Virus record (IMG/VR): IMGVR_UViG_3300009093_000072
Span: 1-43,676 of that record
Reading direction: 5' to 3' (one strand)
DNA: 43,676 nt
Source: a virus
Shown here piece by piece: positions 14,839 through 40,535 of this stretch (its first letter is position 1; each line of letters opens with the position of its first letter). Made by a program: the position numbers and the translations under genes. Below the pieces are notes generated by a model, which did no database searches, had not been told where the DNA came from, and was given only the letters and a program-made list of their open reading frames with translations.

Positions 14839-15342
14839 CTATCGTGGCGCGAATTCGCCGAAGTGCTTTCGCTCTCCAGCTATCCTCGCCGAGACCGCCT
14901 GGTCGAAGTCACGAAACTGCCCGAGGTAGATTTTCCGGCCGTTTTTGTGCACGGCTACCCGCCACGCCTGGCGCTCGACGTGCCATGAAACCCCGCGAAA
15001 TGGGGCTGCATTTGAGCCGCGGCTGACCTGGTTCATTTTGTTCTGCGATCGCGTGGCCAAACGGAGATTTGCCCACCGATTATCGCCCTTGTCTCGATTG
15101 ATGTGGTCGACATCAAAGCCGGCCGGCGGGAATTCACCAGTCATCAGCAGCCAAGCCGCGTGATGCGCTCGGACGAACGCTCCGGCGAGCCCGATTTGAA
15201 TATAGCCGCGATGGAGGCAGCCGGCCGCCTCGCCGGCTTTTTTGCCATCCTTCCAACTGACAACGCCGGAGACAGGATCATACGATAGACGCTCCAGGAT
15301 ATCGTGGCCGACAGTCCGAGTTTTTGGCAATTCACTGGTCAT
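14839..15342 (-). CDS. HNH homing endonuclease with AP2 DNA-binding domain
   Basis: 167 residues. RAHHAAWLLMTGEFP and FDVDHINRDKGDNRWANLRLAT (about 56-98) form an HNH-3 nuclease core; FRGVSWHVERQAWRV and NGRKIYLGQFRDFDQAVSAR (about 114-155) form an AP2 domain. This pair is common in phage homing endonucleases that spread between related phages. It stands alone in the capsid region, just downstream of a hairpin and an intergenic motif copy, and is not overlapped by its neighbours, consistent with a late insertion. Confidence 0.85.
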   Translation of the reverse strand: MTSELPKTRTVGHDILERLSYDPVSGVVSWKDGKKAGEAAGCLHRGYIQIGLAGAFVRAHHAAWLLMTGEFPPAGFDVDHINRDKGDNRWANLRLATRSQNKMNQVSRGSNAAPFRGVSWHVERQAWRVAVHKNGRKIYLGQFRDFDQAVSARIAGERKHFGEFAPR

Positions 15343-18291: not shown

Positions 18292-21200
18292 TCAGCCTTT
18301 GAGCGTCTGGGCCTGTGCGATAACCCCGGGCGCTTGCCCAGCGGCAGTGCTGACAGCCGCCTCATATGCCTGCCGAGACCGCGCATCGGCGTATGCCTGG
18401 AACTGGCGCATGGTCTGTTCGTCGGTACGCGCGCCGGTGAAGTCTGCATGAATCGGCTGAACGACGACGACGCTCGGTGCCGGGCCGGAATTCACGCGCC
18501 CATTCGCAGCCCCAATGTTCGGCCCGATCGCGAACGGCTCTCCGCGGTTGACGCGAGCGAACGGTTGGCCGTTGAGCGAGAGGACGTTTCTGTCGGTGCC
18601 GTAATTGCCGCCGATAATGCCGCTGCCGCCAGTTGCGAAAGCAGGCAGGAAGCTCAACAGGCTTGATGCGGAACTGGGGCTGAACGCACTCCCGGCGGCG
18701 CCCCAATCCGAGCCCAGGTTGCCAGCTATATCGCCTCCGTGGCCGAAGAGGCCACCAAGCGCCGACAGGATGCCACCGAACCCGCCGCCACCGCTGCCAA
18801 GCCCAGCCGACGCACCCTGCTGCGGGAAAAGCATGTTCGCCAGCGGGATCAGCAATTCGCGCTCGATGCCGATCTTGATCAGGTCTTGCAGGAACTCGCC
18901 AGCGATCCCGTGCAAGTGCAGGAACTTCGCGACCGCGCTGGTCAGGCCGTCGTCGAGCTTTTGCAGGCCGGATGCAGCCGCGCGCTCCATTGCCTCGTTG
19001 ACCTGGTCGACGGTGTTTGGGAGTGACGCGAGATAGTCGCCGAGCGGGCCGCGGTTCTGGGCGGCGATCGTTGCTGACCTGTCCGCGAACCGTTTATCCT
19101 GAGTTTTCAGGGTGCGATTGGCGGCATTGAGATCGCTGGTCGAGACAGAGCTATCGTCATTCGCCGCGCGGTCAATCGTGTAGTTGGCGCCGAGCGTTTC
19201 TTTCTGGCGCTCAAGGTCAAGAAGTTGCTTCTCGATCCGCGCGCGCTCGGCCACAGTCTTGGCCAGCGACTCCTGGTCGCGAAGCTCGTCCTCTTTGGCG
19301 TCGATGATCGCCACGGCGGTGTCATAGGTGCGCTTCAACGCCTCCAGGTCATGATCGCGATGGATCACGGACACTTGGGCGGCGTACGTGTCATTTAGAA
19401 GTTGCGCCTTGAGGGCGTCCGCCTGGTCCTTTCTGAGCCGACCATTCTTCACGTCCTGGTCGTAGTCCTTGATCCTCCGGTCTCTATCCGTGTTGAGTTG
19501 CTGTTCCTTGATATCCAAGCGCGCAAGTTCATCCTGCGTCTGCTCGGACTGGGCCTGGAGCTGCTCATCCTGTAGGCGAGCCATCTCGTCTGCAAAGTGC
19601 TTATCTTGCTCCGCAGTCTTGTCCTTGGGTCCCTTCTTGCCAGGACCAGCGAACAACTTGCTGAGGTCGGGACCGCCTCCCACGGGCGCAGTGACATCAG
19701 CGGAATCGGCCGCCTGCGCACCCCGGATATCGCCGAACTGTTTCTGGAGGTTGGTCAGCGCGGCGCGACGGCCCTCTGCCGTATTGTCGACCCAGCCGAC
19801 GCCCTCAACGAAGAACTGACCACCGTCCGTCTTAACATTCCGCGCCGCATTGGCGATCGTTTTAGCGCCCCGCTGGACGATCTGGGAATATGCATTTCGG
19901 CCGCCTGCCGACGAAAGCAACACGCCCCGGTTTGCTTGCCGATCGGACTCGGTGGCCATGAACGATGGATTGCTCATCGCTTGAACTGCAGCCCACTTCT
20001 GAAGCGCCGCGAACGCCGTCAGGATGCCGCTGGCCAAGCGGAAGAAGGTATTGGCCAGCTGGTTGATTGCTTCCGCGTTCTCCGCGACCGTGCTGGACAG
20101 TTTACGCTCCAACTGGTCGCCAAGAAGCCTAAGTTTCTGCGCAGTCTTTGCGGCGTTCTGAATCTCGGTGTTGCTGAGAACGCCGCCCGTTGCCTCGATG
20201 CTTTTCGTTAGTTCATCGAATGAACCCGATCCGTTTTTCAGGATAGGATCAAGCTTCCGCAGCTGCTCACCGCCGAGCGCGGTTTCGAGGGCCATGCGAC
20301 GCGCTTGGTCGGGAATCTTGGCCAGCTTGTCCATGAACGCCGGCAGGATGTCGTTAAGCGACTTATAGCCGTCCTTGGTGTTGCCGAGATCAATGCCCAG
20401 CGCCTTGAATATCTTGGCCTGCTCCTTCGACCCTTCCTGCGCCTTGCCGATGTTGGACGATAGTTGGCCGAACCCCTCGCGCAGCTGCTCACTGGTGACG
20501 CCCGCTTCCGCCGCCGCAATCTCCCAGACTTGCAGTGATTTGGTTGAGACGCCGAGTTGATCACTGACCTGCTTGATCGTTTTGGCGTATTCCAAACCGG
20601 CTTCGGCTGCCTTGGCGACCAATGCGATACCGCCGGCCGTGACGATGCCGGCGATTGCGGCCGCACCGCCGGTGGCAGCGAACGCGCCGGCGCCGCGAGC
20701 GAACTGTTCAGCATTCTTCGCGCCGGCCCTTCTTGATGCCGCCCCTGCGACCGCAGCCCGCTCGATCTCCACCGCCAGCGCGCGCTTTTCCAGCTCGACC
20801 GCGATCTCTGCATCACCGAGCCCAGCGCGCTGAAGCTGGTTGATTAGGCGCAGCTCCGCGAGCTTGTCGCGAATGACCGCAGCGTCTTCCTTGTTCGCGA
20901 AGGTGAGGGCGGCCTGCAGCTTGGCGCGATCGGCCAGCATGTGGTTGATCTCGGCTTCTGCTGCCGTCGCCTCGCTACCGCCGTTGAGCACGGACAGCGG
21001 GATCGCGCCTTGGCCGGTGCGCTCGCCCGGAACCGACGTGCTGGCGATGCGGCCGGACCCGCGCTTGACGCCACCACTGCTAGTCGATTGCGCGACCATG
21101 TTGCGGATACGCCGGACAGTCGCCTCTTCTCGCTGCGCCTCGGCAATCGCGGCGTCGGCCTGCTCCTTGGCGGCTTTCTTCGCTGCCGCCGTCTCGCGGT

Positions 21201-21465
21201 TGGACTGGGCGACGGCGGTATCTGCTCGAGCCTTGCGAGTGCGCGTGACGCGCTGGGTCAGGCCTTCTTCCGCCGCGCCGATTGCGTTAGTGCCCTGCTT
21301 GTACTTCTGTCCCTCTGCGCCAAGGTCGAACGTCTGCGCCTTCAGCTTGTCCGTCGATCGTGCGAACTTGTCATGTACGGCCGTCGCCCGATTGAAATCG
21401 GCCTCGTACTTGTCGAGGTTCCGGACGATCAGGTCCGCGATGATGGCGTCGACAACCTCGGCCAT
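18292..21465 (-). CDS. tail tape measure protein
   Basis: 1057 residues. Long helical charged regions (about 30-250), a hydrophobic stretch about 270-300 (GAAAIAGIVTAGGIALVAKAAEAG), a conserved tape-measure core (KQVSDQLGVSTKSLQVWEIA, about 310-400), further coiled coil (about 610-790), and a Gly-rich C-terminus. Its length sets tail length; by size the tail would be of order 150 nm. The ATG at 21465 overlaps the stop of the frameshifted chaperone T (TGATG), the standard arrangement. Confidence 0.85.
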   Translation of the reverse strand: MAEVVDAIIADLIVRNLDKYEADFNRATAVHDKFARSTDKLKAQTFDLGAEGQKYKQGTNAIGAAEEGLTQRVTRTRKARADTAVAQSNRETAAAKKAAKEQADAAIAEAQREEATVRRIRNMVAQSTSSGGVKRGSGRIASTSVPGERTGQGAIPLSVLNGGSEATAAEAEINHMLADRAKLQAALTFANKEDAAVIRDKLAELRLINQLQRAGLGDAEIAVELEKRALAVEIERAAVAGAASRRAGAKNAEQFARGAGAFAATGGAAAIAGIVTAGGIALVAKAAEAGLEYAKTIKQVSDQLGVSTKSLQVWEIAAAEAGVTSEQLREGFGQLSSNIGKAQEGSKEQAKIFKALGIDLGNTKDGYKSLNDILPAFMDKLAKIPDQARRMALETALGGEQLRKLDPILKNGSGSFDELTKSIEATGGVLSNTEIQNAAKTAQKLRLLGDQLERKLSSTVAENAEAINQLANTFFRLASGILTAFAALQKWAAVQAMSNPSFMATESDRQANRGVLLSSAGGRNAYSQIVQRGAKTIANAARNVKTDGGQFFVEGVGWVDNTAEGRRAALTNLQKQFGDIRGAQAADSADVTAPVGGGPDLSKLFAGPGKKGPKDKTAEQDKHFADEMARLQDEQLQAQSEQTQDELARLDIKEQQLNTDRDRRIKDYDQDVKNGRLRKDQADALKAQLLNDTYAAQVSVIHRDHDLEALKRTYDTAVAIIDAKEDELRDQESLAKTVAERARIEKQLLDLERQKETLGANYTIDRAANDDSSVSTSDLNAANRTLKTQDKRFADRSATIAAQNRGPLGDYLASLPNTVDQVNEAMERAAASGLQKLDDGLTSAVAKFLHLHGIAGEFLQDLIKIGIERELLIPLANMLFPQQGASAGLGSGGGGFGGILSALGGLFGHGGDIAGNLGSDWGAAGSAFSPSSASSLLSFLPAFATGGSGIIGGNYGTDRNVLSLNGQPFARVNRGEPFAIGPNIGAANGRVNSGPAPSVVVVQPIHADFTGARTDEQTMRQFQAYADARSRQAYEAAVSTAAGQAPGVIAQAQTLKG

Positions 21466-22124: not shown

Positions 22125-22859
22125 TTACGAGATAACGACGGTGAGCGTCGTCAGCTTCGGCGAGTTGGTGGCTTCGGCGAACGTCTCGGTCACCTTCACC
22201 GACTTGCTGCCCGCGGTCGCCCATGTCGCATGGATCGTGTTGGTCGCGTCGTCGTAACTGACCGCAGTAGCGCCGGTCGCAACGATGCTGATTTCCGAGC
22301 CTGCGTGGCGGCCGGACACCACGCCCGACCACGGCGTTGCAGCGGTTCCGGTCAGCGGGGTTGCGGTCAGCGTCGCCAATGTCGGCGCCGTGGTCGACAC
22401 CCAATCGACGATGCCGTCGCTCTGCCAGGTGAACTGGCTGGTGACGTTCTGCTTGTCGGTCGCGCCTTCCTGCCACTGCTGGAACAGGAACGGTCCCTCC
22501 CAATAGCCCTGGCTGACGAGATCGTTGCCGGGCTCGCCCTCGATGAAGCGATAGGGGAGCGTGCGGCCATACACCGCGCGGATGACATTGGTCTGCGCGC
22601 GGTTATGCAGACCGGTGCCCGACATGTTCTTTTCCTGGCTGTTCGCATTGCGCGACACCCACGGCACTTCCTCGGGATCCTGACAATTCGGGACAGCTTC
22701 GTCGGACGTGTTGATCTGGTGCGTGAGGCTGCGGGTGTTGAGACCGCAAATGATCACATAGCCAGTGATCGGACTGCCGCCACCATCGAGCAGGCCAAGG
22801 GTCGTGACGTCGACCGCCACATCGAAATATCCACCTTTGACAGTGCTCGGAACGGTCAT
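22125..22859 (-). CDS. major tail tube protein with Ig-like C-terminal domain
   Basis: 244 residues. About 1-160: tail-tube type sequence (KGGYFDVAVDVTTLGLLDGG, TGLHNRAQTNVIRAVYGRTL, EGPFLFQQWQEG); about 161-244: Ig/Big-like domain (APTLATLTATPLTGTAATPW, SEISIVATGATAVSYDDATN). Such extra Ig domains decorate tails in many phages. GGAGG lies just upstream of the ATG at 22859. Followed directly by the two chaperone frames and the tape measure gene, the fixed order of siphovirus tails. Confidence 0.75.
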   Translation of the reverse strand: MTVPSTVKGGYFDVAVDVTTLGLLDGGGSPITGYVIICGLNTRSLTHQINTSDEAVPNCQDPEEVPWVSRNANSQEKNMSGTGLHNRAQTNVIRAVYGRTLPYRFIEGEPGNDLVSQGYWEGPFLFQQWQEGATDKQNVTSQFTWQSDGIVDWVSTTAPTLATLTATPLTGTAATPWSGVVSGRHAGSEISIVATGATAVSYDDATNTIHATWATAGSKSVKVTETFAEATNSPKLTTLTVVIS

Positions 22860-22924: not shown

Positions 22925-23767
22925 CTAGTCGAAGAGGGGCTCTTCCCAGCACTGGCAACCCCAGAGCGTTTGGGCCCGATCGTTAGGAGCGTTGCGCTCG
23001 CTGTAGACGCGATTGTCCCGCGCGACGTGCTCTGGGCGCGGATATCGCAGATGGGGTGTGTGGTGCCATATGAACCGGTCGATGCCAGCCGCCTTCCGCC
23101 GCGACCGTCCCATCGCCGTCACCAGCTTGTCGGTCTGATCGACGCCGATGCCGAGACCGCGGCGCTTGGCTTTGGCCAGAACGTCGGTTGCCGTTGCGCT
23201 GGCGGATGCTGTCGGCTTCCTCGCTGCCAAGTCTCCGAGAAGCCCAGACGTCAGATCATTCTTGACCTTGCGGCTGACGTCATCGGCGAGGCGGCCCATC
23301 CAGGCTACCGCGTCCTCAACATCGTTACGGACCTCGCGCGCGCCAGTGAGGTGGGAGACGTCCAGGCCGGTCGCGGTTCTGATGCGCTGCACCCATTGGC
23401 CACGGTGCCATTGCTCTACGCGGGCAGCGGCATCGGGAAGGCGGGCTTCGGCGGTCCGGACTGCGCCGGCTACCCGATCGCTGGCGGCATCGATCGCGCG
23501 CAGCAACGCGCCGGTATCGCCGGTGACGCGCGCCGAATCATATGCGGCCACGATCGTCGCCCATTCGGCCTGCCATGCTCGCATGATCAGCACGAACGGC
23601 GCTGCCATCGACGACCTCAGGCCCTCCGTCGGCTTGATCTGGCGGAATGGTCGCGGCTTGATTCTCGCGCGCGCGATCATTGCGGGCAGGCTGTAGAGCG
23701 CTCCGGCCAGCAATGCTGCGGCGATTATTGTTTCGGCTGTGTGGTGGTCGTCGGGTTGGGAGGCCAT
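22925..23767 (-). CDS. MuF-like head morphogenesis (minor head) protein
   Basis: 280 residues. Helical N-terminal two-thirds with a hydrophobic N-terminal stretch (TIIAAALLAGALYSLPAMIA), then KAAGIDRFIWHHTPHLRYPR and RDNRVYSERNAPNDRAQTLWGCQCWEEPLF, the typical C-terminal signature of Mu F-like proteins (GCxCxxxP). These interact with the portal and with the capsid interior. It begins in the portal stop (TGATG at 23765-23769). Confidence 0.8.
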   Translation of the reverse strand: MASQPDDHHTAETIIAAALLAGALYSLPAMIARARIKPRPFRQIKPTEGLRSSMAAPFVLIMRAWQAEWATIVAAYDSARVTGDTGALLRAIDAASDRVAGAVRTAEARLPDAAARVEQWHRGQWVQRIRTATGLDVSHLTGAREVRNDVEDAVAWMGRLADDVSRKVKNDLTSGLLGDLAARKPTASASATATDVLAKAKRRGLGIGVDQTDKLVTAMGRSRRKAAGIDRFIWHHTPHLRYPRPEHVARDNRVYSERNAPNDRAQTLWGCQCWEEPLFD

Positions 23768-25737
23768 CAGTCGGCGTCCGGCATACCCATCACATCGCTA
23801 TCGTTATCGACCGGCTCGAATATCTCCGGCCCCAGCACGATCTTGCCGCGGTACGGCTCGACCTTCGACAGATCGACTGGCTGATCGGTCAGCGAGATAT
23901 GCGGCTGATACGACGGCCACTGATCGACAGCCTCGGCTGCGCGCAGGATTTGTTCATGCCGCCACGACAGCGCCGATGACGTGAACAGCAATACCGCCGT
24001 CCGATCGCCAAGCGGCTCGACGATGCGGACGCCGCCGGGCTGGATCGTGATCTCGCCCTTCGCGTCCTGGTTCCATTCGCCGTCGACCTTCATCCAGTCG
24101 AATGCCTGGTCGATATGGACGATGGTGACGTGGAGGCCGGGCTGTAGATCGGGCAAACCCTGCGATTTCGCCCACGCCTTGATGTCGGCGACGTTCACGA
24201 CATCGCGGCGGCCGTACATGGTGCGCGGGGTGGCGTCGGCGAATCGCGCATCATTCGCGGCCATACGCTGCGCCGGCACCTTGCCGCCGGCGGCCTGATC
24301 CCCTCCTCCCGCTTGCAGTGCATTCGGATCGATCGGGTTGCCGTTCGCGTCGACCTCGGGCTCTGCCTCGCTCGGAAACCGTTCGTGCTCGGGAATCTCC
24401 GCCAGCGCATCGCCGAGGCCAGGCAACCAGCTCCGTTCTTCCATCGTGTTCTGCAACGCCTTGTCGAACGCGACGCCGGGAATTGACCCTGTCGCCTGCA
24501 GTTTCTCCACGCCCTGCATGAACGTGAAGAACGTCGTCGCCTCATCCTTCTCTGACTGCGACGACAGAGGCGCCCAATCGTACCAGATGCCGTCATCGAC
24601 CTTGCCAAGCGCCGACGGGATCAGCGCCGCATCGATTTGCGTCATGCACGGCCGCAGATCGAGGTCTTGCCGGCCCTTGATGGTCTTGTGCCAAAGCTGG
24701 ATGTCGGAATCACCGGTCGCGTTCATGCCCTGCGGCGAGATGCCCCACAGCACGGTTGCCGGCATGTCGGCGGCGGCAGCGGCTGCGGTGCGATACGCGG
24801 CCATGATGTCCGGCATGCCGGTCCACGTGACCTGCTTGTCGTCGATCTTCTCTGCGCCAGTGACTCCATCTCCGCCGTCGAGCCACGACACCGAGTTGTT
24901 GCTTTCACCGAGTGCGAAGGCCTGCAGACGCTTGGCAAGATCGGCCTCTCCACCAGGTTTGGTGAATTTGTCGAACAGCTTGGGGATGTAGATGCGCCGC
25001 AACCGCGCCTGGCTGATCAGCGCCGCAAACCCGGTGTCCGCGGTATCGACGTTCTGGATCGCGTCGATGATCGTTTGGACCTTGGCTTGACCCCAGAACG
25101 CGGACTGCCAGTCGACGTCGACGATATCGGCTACGGGTTCGGCTTTGAATGCGACGACGCGGCTGGGGTGGAAGCGGATGGGCTTGCTGGTCGAGGTCCC
25201 TTGCAGCTGGATCTCGTAATAAGACGGATGGCCGAACCATGGATCGGTCCACGTGTCGATCATGGGGCCGAGCGCGAACCGAGACCGATGCCAAACGTGG
25301 ATCGCCTTGAGGTCGCCGGCGTTCAGCTTGGCGGGGTCGATCGGGTTGGCCTGGTCGAGGTCCGACCCAAGGTACAGCACCATGCCAGCCCCACCGAGCC
25401 CACGCAGACACTCGGCACGACGGACCTTGTTGCGCAGGTCCAGCCGCTTTTCCTCGGCCTCGAGCTTTTCGATGTCGGCGCTGTCAGCCTGCCAGTCGCG
25501 CCATTCCCGCACCATCTCGGTCGCGGGCTTGTCGATCGCCTTCCGCATGACCCACGACCCGCGATAGGCCTGGTCTATCTCCTGGTCGGACATGAAGCGC
25601 GCGAAATAGCGGCTGTAGCTGCGCTGGTCGGTGGTGGTGCCCATGCCGGTCAGCATCGAGATGAGCCCGTCGCGGATCGGCACGACGTTGCTCGCATCCT
25701 TCAGGCGAATGCTACCAGGTCGGATGCGGCCGGACAT
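23767..25737 (-). CDS. portal protein (DUF1073 type) fused to a 2H phosphoesterase, Acb1-like
   Basis: 656 residues. About 1-430: DUF1073 portal (ARFMSDQEIDQAYRGSWVMR, GMVLYLGSDLDQANPID, VAFKAEPVADIVDVDWQSAF). About 500-656: a 2H phosphoesterase with two HxT/S motifs, HVTIVH (His536) and PHISLT (His613), in the YQPHISL context seen in this superfamily. Databases link this family to Acb1, the T4 nuclease that degrades CBASS cyclic nucleotides; that activity here is inferred. The portal part forms the DNA entry ring. The gap to TerL holds a motif copy. Confidence 0.75.
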   Translation of the reverse strand: MSGRIRPGSIRLKDASNVVPIRDGLISMLTGMGTTTDQRSYSRYFARFMSDQEIDQAYRGSWVMRKAIDKPATEMVREWRDWQADSADIEKLEAEEKRLDLRNKVRRAECLRGLGGAGMVLYLGSDLDQANPIDPAKLNAGDLKAIHVWHRSRFALGPMIDTWTDPWFGHPSYYEIQLQGTSTSKPIRFHPSRVVAFKAEPVADIVDVDWQSAFWGQAKVQTIIDAIQNVDTADTGFAALISQARLRRIYIPKLFDKFTKPGGEADLAKRLQAFALGESNNSVSWLDGGDGVTGAEKIDDKQVTWTGMPDIMAAYRTAAAAAADMPATVLWGISPQGMNATGDSDIQLWHKTIKGRQDLDLRPCMTQIDAALIPSALGKVDDGIWYDWAPLSSQSEKDEATTFFTFMQGVEKLQATGSIPGVAFDKALQNTMEERSWLPGLGDALAEIPEHERFPSEAEPEVDANGNPIDPNALQAGGGDQAAGGKVPAQRMAANDARFADATPRTMYGRRDVVNVADIKAWAKSQGLPDLQPGLHVTIVHIDQAFDWMKVDGEWNQDAKGEITIQPGGVRIVEPLGDRTAVLLFTSSALSWRHEQILRAAEAVDQWPSYQPHISLTDQPVDLSKVEPYRGKIVLGPEIFEPVDNDSDVMGMPDAD

Positions 25738-35092: not shown

Positions 35093-35665
35093 CTATGCAG
35101 CCTCCACATCATGTTCGCCGCAGCCGCGACCGATCAGTTCGCCATTCTCGCCGCCGGTGAAGTCGCGCCAGTGCACCCAGCCGTTCGGGCAGGAAAAACC
35201 CCATTCCCGAACCTTGGGGCCGGTCATGAACAGGGAGATTGCGTGTTCGCCCGGCAGGATTTCCAACCGATGAAGCGCACTCGCCTCTCGGCTGCCGATC
35301 CAGCCAGCCTCGCGCATGAAGCTGCCATCGGGCGTGTGCTCGACGTATCGGCCGGACAGAAGCATCGACGTGTTCGCCCACGGATGATCGTGGAGCGCGC
35401 GGTCGTCGTCGCTGCGGAGGATTTCGTGGAGATAGACGTTGCAGCCTTCGTTGCGCGGGATGATCCACCAGCGGCGAAGGTATGGATTGGACGGGTCGCC
35501 GATCACGAAGTCGGGGCGCGTCTCCATGATGCTTTCCGCCCAGGCGGCGAGGTCGGCGGTTGTGGCGTATCCGATCGCGCGCGGGGCTGGCGCCACCGTC
35601 TCAGCGAGACATCCGCGGTCGAAGGCTTCCTGCCACGCGCCGGGATAGGAATCGGCGTCGATCAT
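35093..35665 (-). CDS. cupin-like phage protein
   Basis: 190 residues. PRNEGCNVYLHEILRSDDDR then ALHDHPWANTSMLLSGRYVE, LEILPGEHAISLFMTGPKVR and WGFSCPNGWVHWRDF form a cupin-like barrel with possible metal ligands (His of LHDHP, His of GEHAI). Similar proteins occur in phages and are often called cupin-like with unknown substrate. It overlaps the GIY-YIG fusion gene by ATGA. Confidence 0.6.
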   Translation of the reverse strand: MIDADSYPGAWQEAFDRGCLAETVAPAPRAIGYATTADLAAWAESIMETRPDFVIGDPSNPYLRRWWIIPRNEGCNVYLHEILRSDDDRALHDHPWANTSMLLSGRYVEHTPDGSFMREAGWIGSREASALHRLEILPGEHAISLFMTGPKVREWGFSCPNGWVHWRDFTGGENGELIGRGCGEHDVEAA

Positions 35666-36186
35666 GCTGCGGCCTGCTGGCGCGCGGCAGCCTTCAGATA
35701 TTCGATGGTGTCAGGGTGAACGTCCTTGCCCAACGACTCGATGGCGCTAAGAACGGCGGGGCGACGATATGTCGGGATCCCGCGCTTGTTCTGTGTGCGC
35801 CACGAACAGACTGTCGTCAGCGGGGCATTAACCGCCTTGGCGACCTCGGTAGCGCCGCCGAACGCTCTGAAAATATCCGTCACCGGTGCAAGGCCAGCGG
35901 GGGCGGGCTCGCCAGTATCGGGGAGCGCACCGGTTTCCCGGACAACAGCGATGAGCATCAGCAATTCTGGCGCGGGCGAGAACCATTCGAAATGGAGGCG
36001 ATGCCCTTCAAATTGGCGATGCAGCCTGGTTTCATCGACTACGCCACCTGGGGCAGTGCAGATGATTTCCAGTGGCAGGGGCGACGCGGGCTTCAGCGAA
36101 GCCAAGCGCCTCGTCGGATGAATGCTATGCCCAATCTTGATGGGGCCATCTGCACCGACCGGCTTGATGAAATAGACGTGGCTCAT
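35662..36186 (-). CDS. GIY-YIG-like nuclease (T5orf172 type) fused to HTH
   Basis: 174 residues. About 1-85: VYFIKPVGADGPIKIGHSIH then PTRRLASLKPASP and ETRLHRQFEGHRLHFEWFSP, the core of T5orf172/MUG113 GIY-YIG-related nucleases with Arg in TRRL and Glu in DET. About 105-150: IFRAFGGATEVAKAVNAPLT, TVCSWRTQNKRGIPTYRRPA, a YdaS/Cro-like helix-turn-helix. It overlaps the Cro-like gene by ATGA. The HTH may steer the nuclease to phage or host DNA or serve as regulator. Confidence 0.7.
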   Translation of the reverse strand: MSHVYFIKPVGADGPIKIGHSIHPTRRLASLKPASPLPLEIICTAPGGVVDETRLHRQFEGHRLHFEWFSPAPELLMLIAVVRETGALPDTGEPAPAGLAPVTDIFRAFGGATEVAKAVNAPLTTVCSWRTQNKRGIPTYRRPAVLSAIESLGKDVHPDTIEYLKAAARQQAAA

Positions 36187-39286: not shown

Positions 39287-39981
39287 ACGCGCCGGCAAAA
39301 TTCGGCTCGGTGACCTATCACCGCGATCTCATTCAGGGGTCAGATGAGTGGATGCAGCAGCGTTGCGGCTTGCTCACGGCGTCTGAGATGAAACTGATCC
39401 TGACACCGACGCTCAAGCTGGCGAACAACGACAAGACCCGGGCGCATGTGTTTGAGATCGCGGCGCAGAGGATCACTCAATATGTCGAGCCGCACTATGT
39501 CGGCGACGACATGATCCGCGGCCACGACGACGAGATTGAGGCGCGCGAGATCTACAGCCAGAATTATGCGCCGGTGGAACAGGTCGGCTTCATCACGAAC
39601 GACAAGCTCGGGTTCGTCATCGGCTGTTCCCCGGATGGATTGGTCGGCACCGACGGCGGGATCGAGTGCAAGTCGCGCCGGCAGAAGTTCCAGATTCAGA
39701 CCATCGCCAGTCAAGAGATGCCGGACGATTTCGTCATCCAGGTGCAGTCCGAGCTATTCGTGACCGAGCGTAAGTGGTTTGATTTCGTGAGCTATTCGGG
39801 CGGCCTGCCGATGGCGGTCATCCGCGTCGAGCCGGACCCCGAATATCAGGCTGCGATCCGCGCGGCCGCAATTGAGTTCGAGGAGCGCGTGACCGACGTC
39901 ATCGCGGCTTACCGGTCGTCGCTCGCCGCCATCCGCCACATCCCGACCGAGCGTCGGGTCGAACAGGAGATGTTTGTCTAA
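39283..39981 (+). CDS. YqaJ-type viral exonuclease/recombinase
   Basis: 232 residues. GSDEWMQQRCGLLTASEMKL (about 19-38), GFVIGCSPDGLVG (about 110-122) and GIECKSRRQKF (about 126-136) are the YqaJ/lambda exonuclease signatures, with Asp118, Glu128 and Lys130 as the active site. It should resect double-strand ends for single-strand annealing. Start GTG 39283 has ggaggggtg just before it and overlaps the preceding stop. Confidence 0.85.
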   Translation: MNAPAKFGSVTYHRDLIQGSDEWMQQRCGLLTASEMKLILTPTLKLANNDKTRAHVFEIAAQRITQYVEPHYVGDDMIRGHDDEIEAREIYSQNYAPVEQVGFITNDKLGFVIGCSPDGLVGTDGGIECKSRRQKFQIQTIASQEMPDDFVIQVQSELFVTERKWFDFVSYSGGLPMAVIRVEPDPEYQAAIRAAAIEFEERVTDVIAAYRSSLAAIRHIPTERRVEQEMFV

Positions 39982-40535
39982 TGTCCGAGGAGTGGCGCCC
40001 TACCGTCGGCTTTCCCGATTATGCTGTCAGCAGCGAGGGGCGCGTCATGCGCGCGGTCGAGAGCACAAAAGGCAACCTGCCCAAGGTGCTCAAGCCGTGG
40101 ATCAATAACCAGGGCTATAGGATCATCACGCTGTTCGCGGGCGGACGGTCGCGCCGAATGCTCGTCAGCCGGTTGGTGTGCGAGGCATTTCACGGGCCAG
40201 CGCCCACACCTGATCATCACGCCGCACATGGCGACGGCAATCCGGCGAACAACTCTGCGTCGAACTTGCGCTGGGCAACGCGCAAGGAAAACATGGCTGA
40301 CTGCCTCATTCACGGGACCCGCGCGGTCGGCGCTCGCCATGGGCGGACCACAAAACCGCACCGCACGCCGCGCGGGTCATCTCATGGACACGCGAAGATC
40401 ACCGAGCAGGATGTCGTCGAAATTCGGGCCGCGCCAAGAACTCTCGGGTCAGGCGTGAGACTCGCCGAACAATATGGCGTCAGCCCCGCTGCAATTTGCC
40501 TCATCAGATCACGTAAAAACTGGAGCCACGTATGA
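39981..40535 (+). CDS. HNH endonuclease with NUMOD4 and HTH domains
   Basis: 184 residues. NUMOD4-like EEWRPTVGFPDYAVSSEGRV (about 3-22), HNH core VSRLVCEAFHGPAPTPDHHA then NPANNSASNLRWATRKENMA (about 57-105), and a C-terminal HTH (VRLAEQYGVSPAAICLIRSR, about 157-176). A free-standing homing-type endonuclease, inserted between the exonuclease and its usual partner gene. Starts within the exonuclease stop (TAATG). Confidence 0.85.
   Translation: MSEEWRPTVGFPDYAVSSEGRVMRAVESTKGNLPKVLKPWINNQGYRIITLFAGGRSRRMLVSRLVCEAFHGPAPTPDHHAAHGDGNPANNSASNLRWATRKENMADCLIHGTRAVGARHGRTTKPHRTPRGSSHGHAKITEQDVVEIRAAPRTLGSGVRLAEQYGVSPAAICLIRSRKNWSHV

Follow-up and report, generated by a model that had tools for sequence, protein, structure and literature searches.

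According to the 2017 survey of polyvalent proteins (Iyer, PMC5512222), 2H domains are fused to phage portal or MuF proteins in parallel to PBECR fusions, and they were proposed either to act as RNases or to remove signalling nucleotides. The portal-2H fusion was described again in a 2022 survey, which suggested that it is packaged and injected against nucleotide signalling (PMC9503650). Among characterized enzymes, the closest is Acb1 (T4 gene 57B; FBB1 7t26/7t27; PF23474), in which Y12, W74, F107 and W147 stack on bases and E141 contacts the N6 of adenine (PMC9117128). The activity of T4 Acb1 appears about 15 min into infection, matching the late onset of CBASS (PMC9117128). The protein described here has the same architecture and the same proposed role as the portal-2H and MuF-2H polyvalent proteins (PMC5512222, PMC9503650). 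The fusion and the counter-immunity idea are thus already published (2017, 2022), and our copy is a new member of a group that includes the isolated phages Pam3, phiPSA1 and Rhizobium phages. A search of the open-licence literature returned no activity data on a portal-fused copy. Beyond the published surveys in that literature, we add the pattern of exchange, the junction, a conserved catalytic set combined with a divergent pocket, and the lack of the 2H domain in the modelled Pam3 portal (8hds).

The window is the 43,676-nucleotide viral record IMGVR_UViG_3300009093_000072 at its full length. The fusion is an open reading frame on its minus strand, and stops interrupt the plus-strand translation of the same interval. 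The gene, its parts and its downstream neighbor are as follows.

23767-25737, minus strand: portal-2H fusion gene, 656 aa, ATG start (open reading frame; PHROG 146)
24505..25581, minus strand: portal domain PF06381 (Phage_portal_3), residues 53-411 (Pfam E 6.1e-87)
24238..24375, minus strand: linker, residues about 455-500, predicted to be disordered (pLDDT < 50)
24250..24267, minus strand: RMAAND, residues 491-496, an RRAAND variant at the fusion junction (motif table)
23797..24222, minus strand: Acb1-like 2H phosphoesterase domain PF23474, residues 506-647 (Pfam E 5.4e-21)
22925..23767, minus strand: minor capsid / head morphogenesis protein gene (PHROG 324, E 3.2e-18)

The initial annotation had placed a 2H domain on the C-terminus of the portal, and this is borne out by the matches to PF06381 and PF23474 in one reading frame. 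The domain scores 75.3 bits against PF23474, for which the curated Pfam cut-off is 27, and a family search of the phage's own genome placed it at the identical site. PHROG 755, which is annotated as RNA ligase, spans residues 518-646. Because the match to the portal family PHROG 146 spans residues 20-640, the fusion belongs inside the known portal family. The surroundings are those of a head gene, with the terminase large subunit upstream and, immediately downstream, the minor capsid gene, which shares 1 base with the portal stop; this order at the 3′ side of the portal is kept in many relatives. Genes for the head maturation protease, cement and major head proteins lie farther on. An integrase gene is present in the window, and the phage is therefore likely to be temperate. 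Two tail-like open reading frames, one resembling a tape measure (18292-21465) and one a major tail protein (22125-22859), sit inside the head block, flanked by the minor capsid gene and the gene for the head maturation protease.

By both sequence and structure, Acb1 is the nearest family to the portal-fused domain. PF23474 was matched in all 41 relatives scanned (E <= 0.01), and a profile of 41 fused domains retrieved 8hds (6e-55) and Acb1 7t26 (1e-16) from the PDB. Comparison of a predicted structure with Acb1 had been proposed as a check of the 2H fold, and the AlphaFold2 model of residues 495-656 (pLDDT 88, pTM 0.81) supports that fold: its top-ranked solved structure is FBB1 Acb1 7t26 (Z 14.1, rmsd 2.4 Å over 127 residues), followed by BCSR5 Acb1 (Z 13.4), E. 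coli LigT (10.7) and human Usb1 (10.4). Rotavirus VP3, MHV ns2 and the Arabidopsis cyclic phosphodiesterase also appear in the list.

We aligned 62 distinct portal-fused domains (mean pairwise identity 52%) with T4 Acb1; one row ends ahead of the second motif. Three elements of the active site are located as follows.

24214..24216, minus strand: Y508, equivalent to Acb1 Y12 (base stacking); invariant in the 62-domain alignment
24124..24132, minus strand: first catalytic motif H536-V-T538, equivalent to Acb1 H44 and T46; invariant in 62/62
23893..23901, minus strand: second catalytic motif H613-I-S615, equivalent to Acb1 H113 and T115; histidine in 61/61

The two strings first read as 2H motifs, HVTIVH (residues 536-541) and PHISLT (residues 612-617), are not chance occurrences, because PF23474 is present in 41/41 relatives and both histidines are invariant among 62 diverse domains. 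The histidines named in the initial annotation, H536 and H613, indeed align with H44 and H113 of Acb1. By alignment and fold prediction, the window domain shares with Acb1 the 2H fold, the HxT and HxT/S motifs, the stacking tyrosine, an aromatic residue at position 107 and Glu 141. The position equivalent to T115 is T in 40 and S in 21 of the 61 rows; with one exception, the rows that include position 107 have W, F, Y or H there (W607 in the window); and E141 is kept in 43/61 fused domains, including the window's (E641). However, the window domain differs from Acb1 in its attachment to a portal through a flexible linker, in the replacement of W74, and in having an HxS second motif and no lid tryptophan W147; its activity is predicted. 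W74 is kept in none of the portal-fused group, in which the position is mostly Glu and lies next to a GGxR motif, and the aligned segment of FBB1 Acb1 has F there. W147 is kept in 35 fused domains, and nearly all HxS domains, the window's among them, lack it. According to the alignment, the window equivalents of the two tryptophans are E574 and S647. With no W74 in any fused domain and no W147 in the window copy, the pocket and lid differ from those of the tested Acb1 enzymes, and the substrate may differ from that of Acb1 as well. The GGxR motif beside the W74 position (residues 568-571, window 24025-24036), whose first G, second G and R are nearly invariant among portal-fused 2H domains, may be a sign of a different substrate pocket. 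In 15 related pairs, the dN/dS of the 2H domain ranges from 0 to 0.17, and the domain is under purifying selection in these relatives. The conserved positions and the low dN/dS form the pattern expected of a working enzyme whose pocket, as read from the alignment, departs somewhat from the T4 Acb1 pocket.

The domain is predicted to be flexibly attached to the portal, with pLDDT < 50 at residues 455-461 and 470-500 of the full-length model. The portal C-terminus is directed into the head interior. The Pam3 portal, 8hds, is a full-length relative with 33% identity and the same C-terminal 2H domain; it differs from the window protein in having the lid Trp and in having S, not P, before the second His. 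Our full-length model aligns with it (Z 27.5) over window residues 36-440 only. The deposited 8hds chain has 621 aa that match the window over both domains, and 442 of these residues are modelled. The aligned part runs from chain residue 25 to 417 and few modelled residues lie elsewhere, which leaves no room for a 2H domain of about 148 residues; a structure search with the 2H domain model did not return 8hds among its matches. The 2H domain is thus either flexible or absent in the Pam3 map.

The DNA similarity between the window and a close relative (L005) stops near window 24275 (residue about 488), just ahead of the RRAAND-like motif, and several portal-only relatives terminate 5-9 residues past this motif. 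With the pattern used, the motif was found in 37/67 2H-bearing and 10/42 other proteins; it is therefore a marker for some members of the family, not for all. Internal initiation of a free 2H protein was considered and rejected: no Shine-Dalgarno-like sequence stands at the window's candidate starts, and such a sequence occurs near a candidate internal start in only 13/67 2H domains.

The 2H domain acts like a cassette that has been gained, lost and exchanged at one junction. It is carried by 35/54 viral relatives, a count that favours carriers because two of the scan patterns were taken from the 2H domain, and by 31/50 of the portals examined in host genomes, which were scanned with portal patterns only. 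On a quick tree of 101 portals, the 2H label changes 29 times against a shuffled mean of 30.9, and at least 23 of the changes fall on well-supported branches. The nearest portals (L002-L005) are about 90% identical over 445 aa, yet the 2H domains of L002-L004 are only 44-45% identical to the window's. A tree that groups the window 2H with the L002 and L004 domains is rejected by the AU test (p 1.8e-9). Conversely, two relatives (L011, L012) have portals 43% identical and 2H domains 62% identical to the window's, and the closest 2H domain among all rows, 71% identical, is that of Sphingomonas soli (L062). The portal of L005 is 91% identical to the window's and carries a PBECR3 nuclease in place of 2H. 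No free-standing 2H gene was found near portals without the domain in the viral-contig loci. The 2H domain is an exchangeable enzymatic domain on a virion protein, and the swaps provide natural pairs in which nearly identical portals differ in bearing 2H, PBECR3 or no added domain.

Several other arrangements were seen at this end of the portal. DUF1073 portals with a C-terminal PBECR3 above the Pfam cut-off occur at L005:5917-7995 and L052:5986-7785, and L097 is assigned to this class by its C-terminal sequence alone; these fusions share the position and the portal type of the window protein and carry a predicted BECR-fold RNase instead of 2H. A single tblastn match indicates a PBECR-like sequence at the portal of Rhizobium phage RHph_N28_2. 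In L008, a weak PBECR3-like stretch, below the Pfam cut-off, follows the 2H domain, and a portal of 901 aa in L006 has about 250 extra residues of unknown family past the 2H domain (L006:5655-6417). The apparently separate portal and 2H genes of Synechococcus phage Yong-M3-232 were rejected as a case of independent genes, since about 128 bp that are duplicated in tandem compared with Ssp-JY40 (L058:1500-1720) split them into two overlapping reading frames; the duplication is possibly real or possibly an assembly error.

What does the domain do? The proposal that we favor, and to which we give roughly even chances, is that the DUF1073 portal bears, via a flexible linker, a catalytically competent Acb1-type 2H phosphodiesterase that would cut cyclic oligonucleotide alarm signals. 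The domain would apply the metal-independent two-histidine mechanism of Acb1 to the phosphodiesters of these signals, the defence targeted would be CBASS or a similar nucleotide-signalled system of the host, and destruction of the signal would delay abortive death. We arrive at this estimate because the family and fold are nearest to Acb1, the catalytic positions are kept, dN/dS is low, the domain is swapped among portals, the linker is predicted to be disordered, no RNA ligase was found in the window, and T4 Acb1 acts late in infection (PMC9117128). Against it stand the loss of W74 and W147, the presence of PBECR3 at the same position and the distribution of CBASS among hosts: the CBASS nucleotidyltransferase PF18144 was found in 4/30 hosts of 2H-bearing prophages versus 3/18 without the domain, a comparison of low power. 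An association with CBASS in host genomes was accordingly not seen with PF18144, the only marker used, in a set too small to exclude one. As a prediction from sequence, anti-CBASS activity of the portal-fused domain is plausible. If a portal-borne 2H domain does destroy alarm nucleotides, a structural protein produced at the time when late-acting defences respond would bring its own antidote, in proportion to virion assembly, and the domains that follow the portal junction offer a route to finding more counter-defence domains.

Once the DNA has been ejected, the portal stays behind with the head. Entry of the domain into the next cell would therefore need prior release from the portal, and the earlier suggestion that every virion delivers the domain does not follow. 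In our view the site of action is most likely the producing cell, where freshly made, unassembled portal would be available during late expression, when such defences respond; copies built into the virion would lie inside the head, at the portal's inner end, and could reach the next cell only after release. The producing cell is at least as likely a place of action as a newly infected one. A version with release, in which the portal C-terminus is a payload slot for exchangeable effectors (2H, PBECR3 and others) that the head maturation protease frees at assembly and that leave with the DNA for the next cell, appears unlikely to us.

The alternative that survives best, possible but with the odds clearly against it, is that the domain is an RNA-directed enzyme, a 2H RNase or a Usb1- or LigT-like processor of RNA ends that targets RNA of the host or the phage. 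In L005 and L052, the C-terminal place of 2H is taken by PBECR3, which is predicted to be a family of RNases, and PBECR3 may also follow 2H in L008; LigT and Usb1 rank next after Acb1 in the fold comparison; both W74 and the lid W147 are missing here; and an RNase role was put forward in the 2017 survey, partly from the PBECR parallel (PMC5512222). However, LigT and Usb1 are clearly more distant than Acb1, the window domain retains E141 (the adenine N6 contact of Acb1), and the window yielded no RNA ligase. We find it distinctly doubtful, though the altered pocket and lid would agree with it, that the enzyme counters another alarm nucleotide, such as an ADP-ribose-derived or linear oligoadenylate signal. 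Enzymes of the 2H class act on 2′-5′ oligoadenylate and Appr>p, rotavirus VP3, MHV ns2 and the Arabidopsis cyclic phosphodiesterase are in the fold list, and portals themselves trigger TIR and Avs defences (PMC12847820), but sequence and fold are closest to Acb1. Finally, a structural part that aids portal assembly or DNA packaging, with its enzymatic look as a relic, is very improbable even for a domain of a virion protein, given the many portals without it, the differences between near-neighbours, its lack in the modelled Pam3 virion portal, catalytic positions intact in all complete rows and a linker predicted to be disordered. That the 2H domain is a catalytic effector, not a structural part, is well supported.

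Some further observations concern mobile elements and prophage arrangement. The window phage has several mobile endonuclease-like genes, with HNH_3, NUMOD4/HNH and MUG113/T5orf172 domains at 14839-15342, 39981-40535 and 35662-36186, respectively. In three relatives (L034, L045, L087), open reading frames judged by eye to be HNH-endonuclease-like lie between the portal and minor capsid genes, and their location right after the portal might aid exchange there. A single Roseovarius MAG chromosome has two identical portals (L083, L084) separated by about 47 kb, perhaps from tandem prophages or an assembly error.
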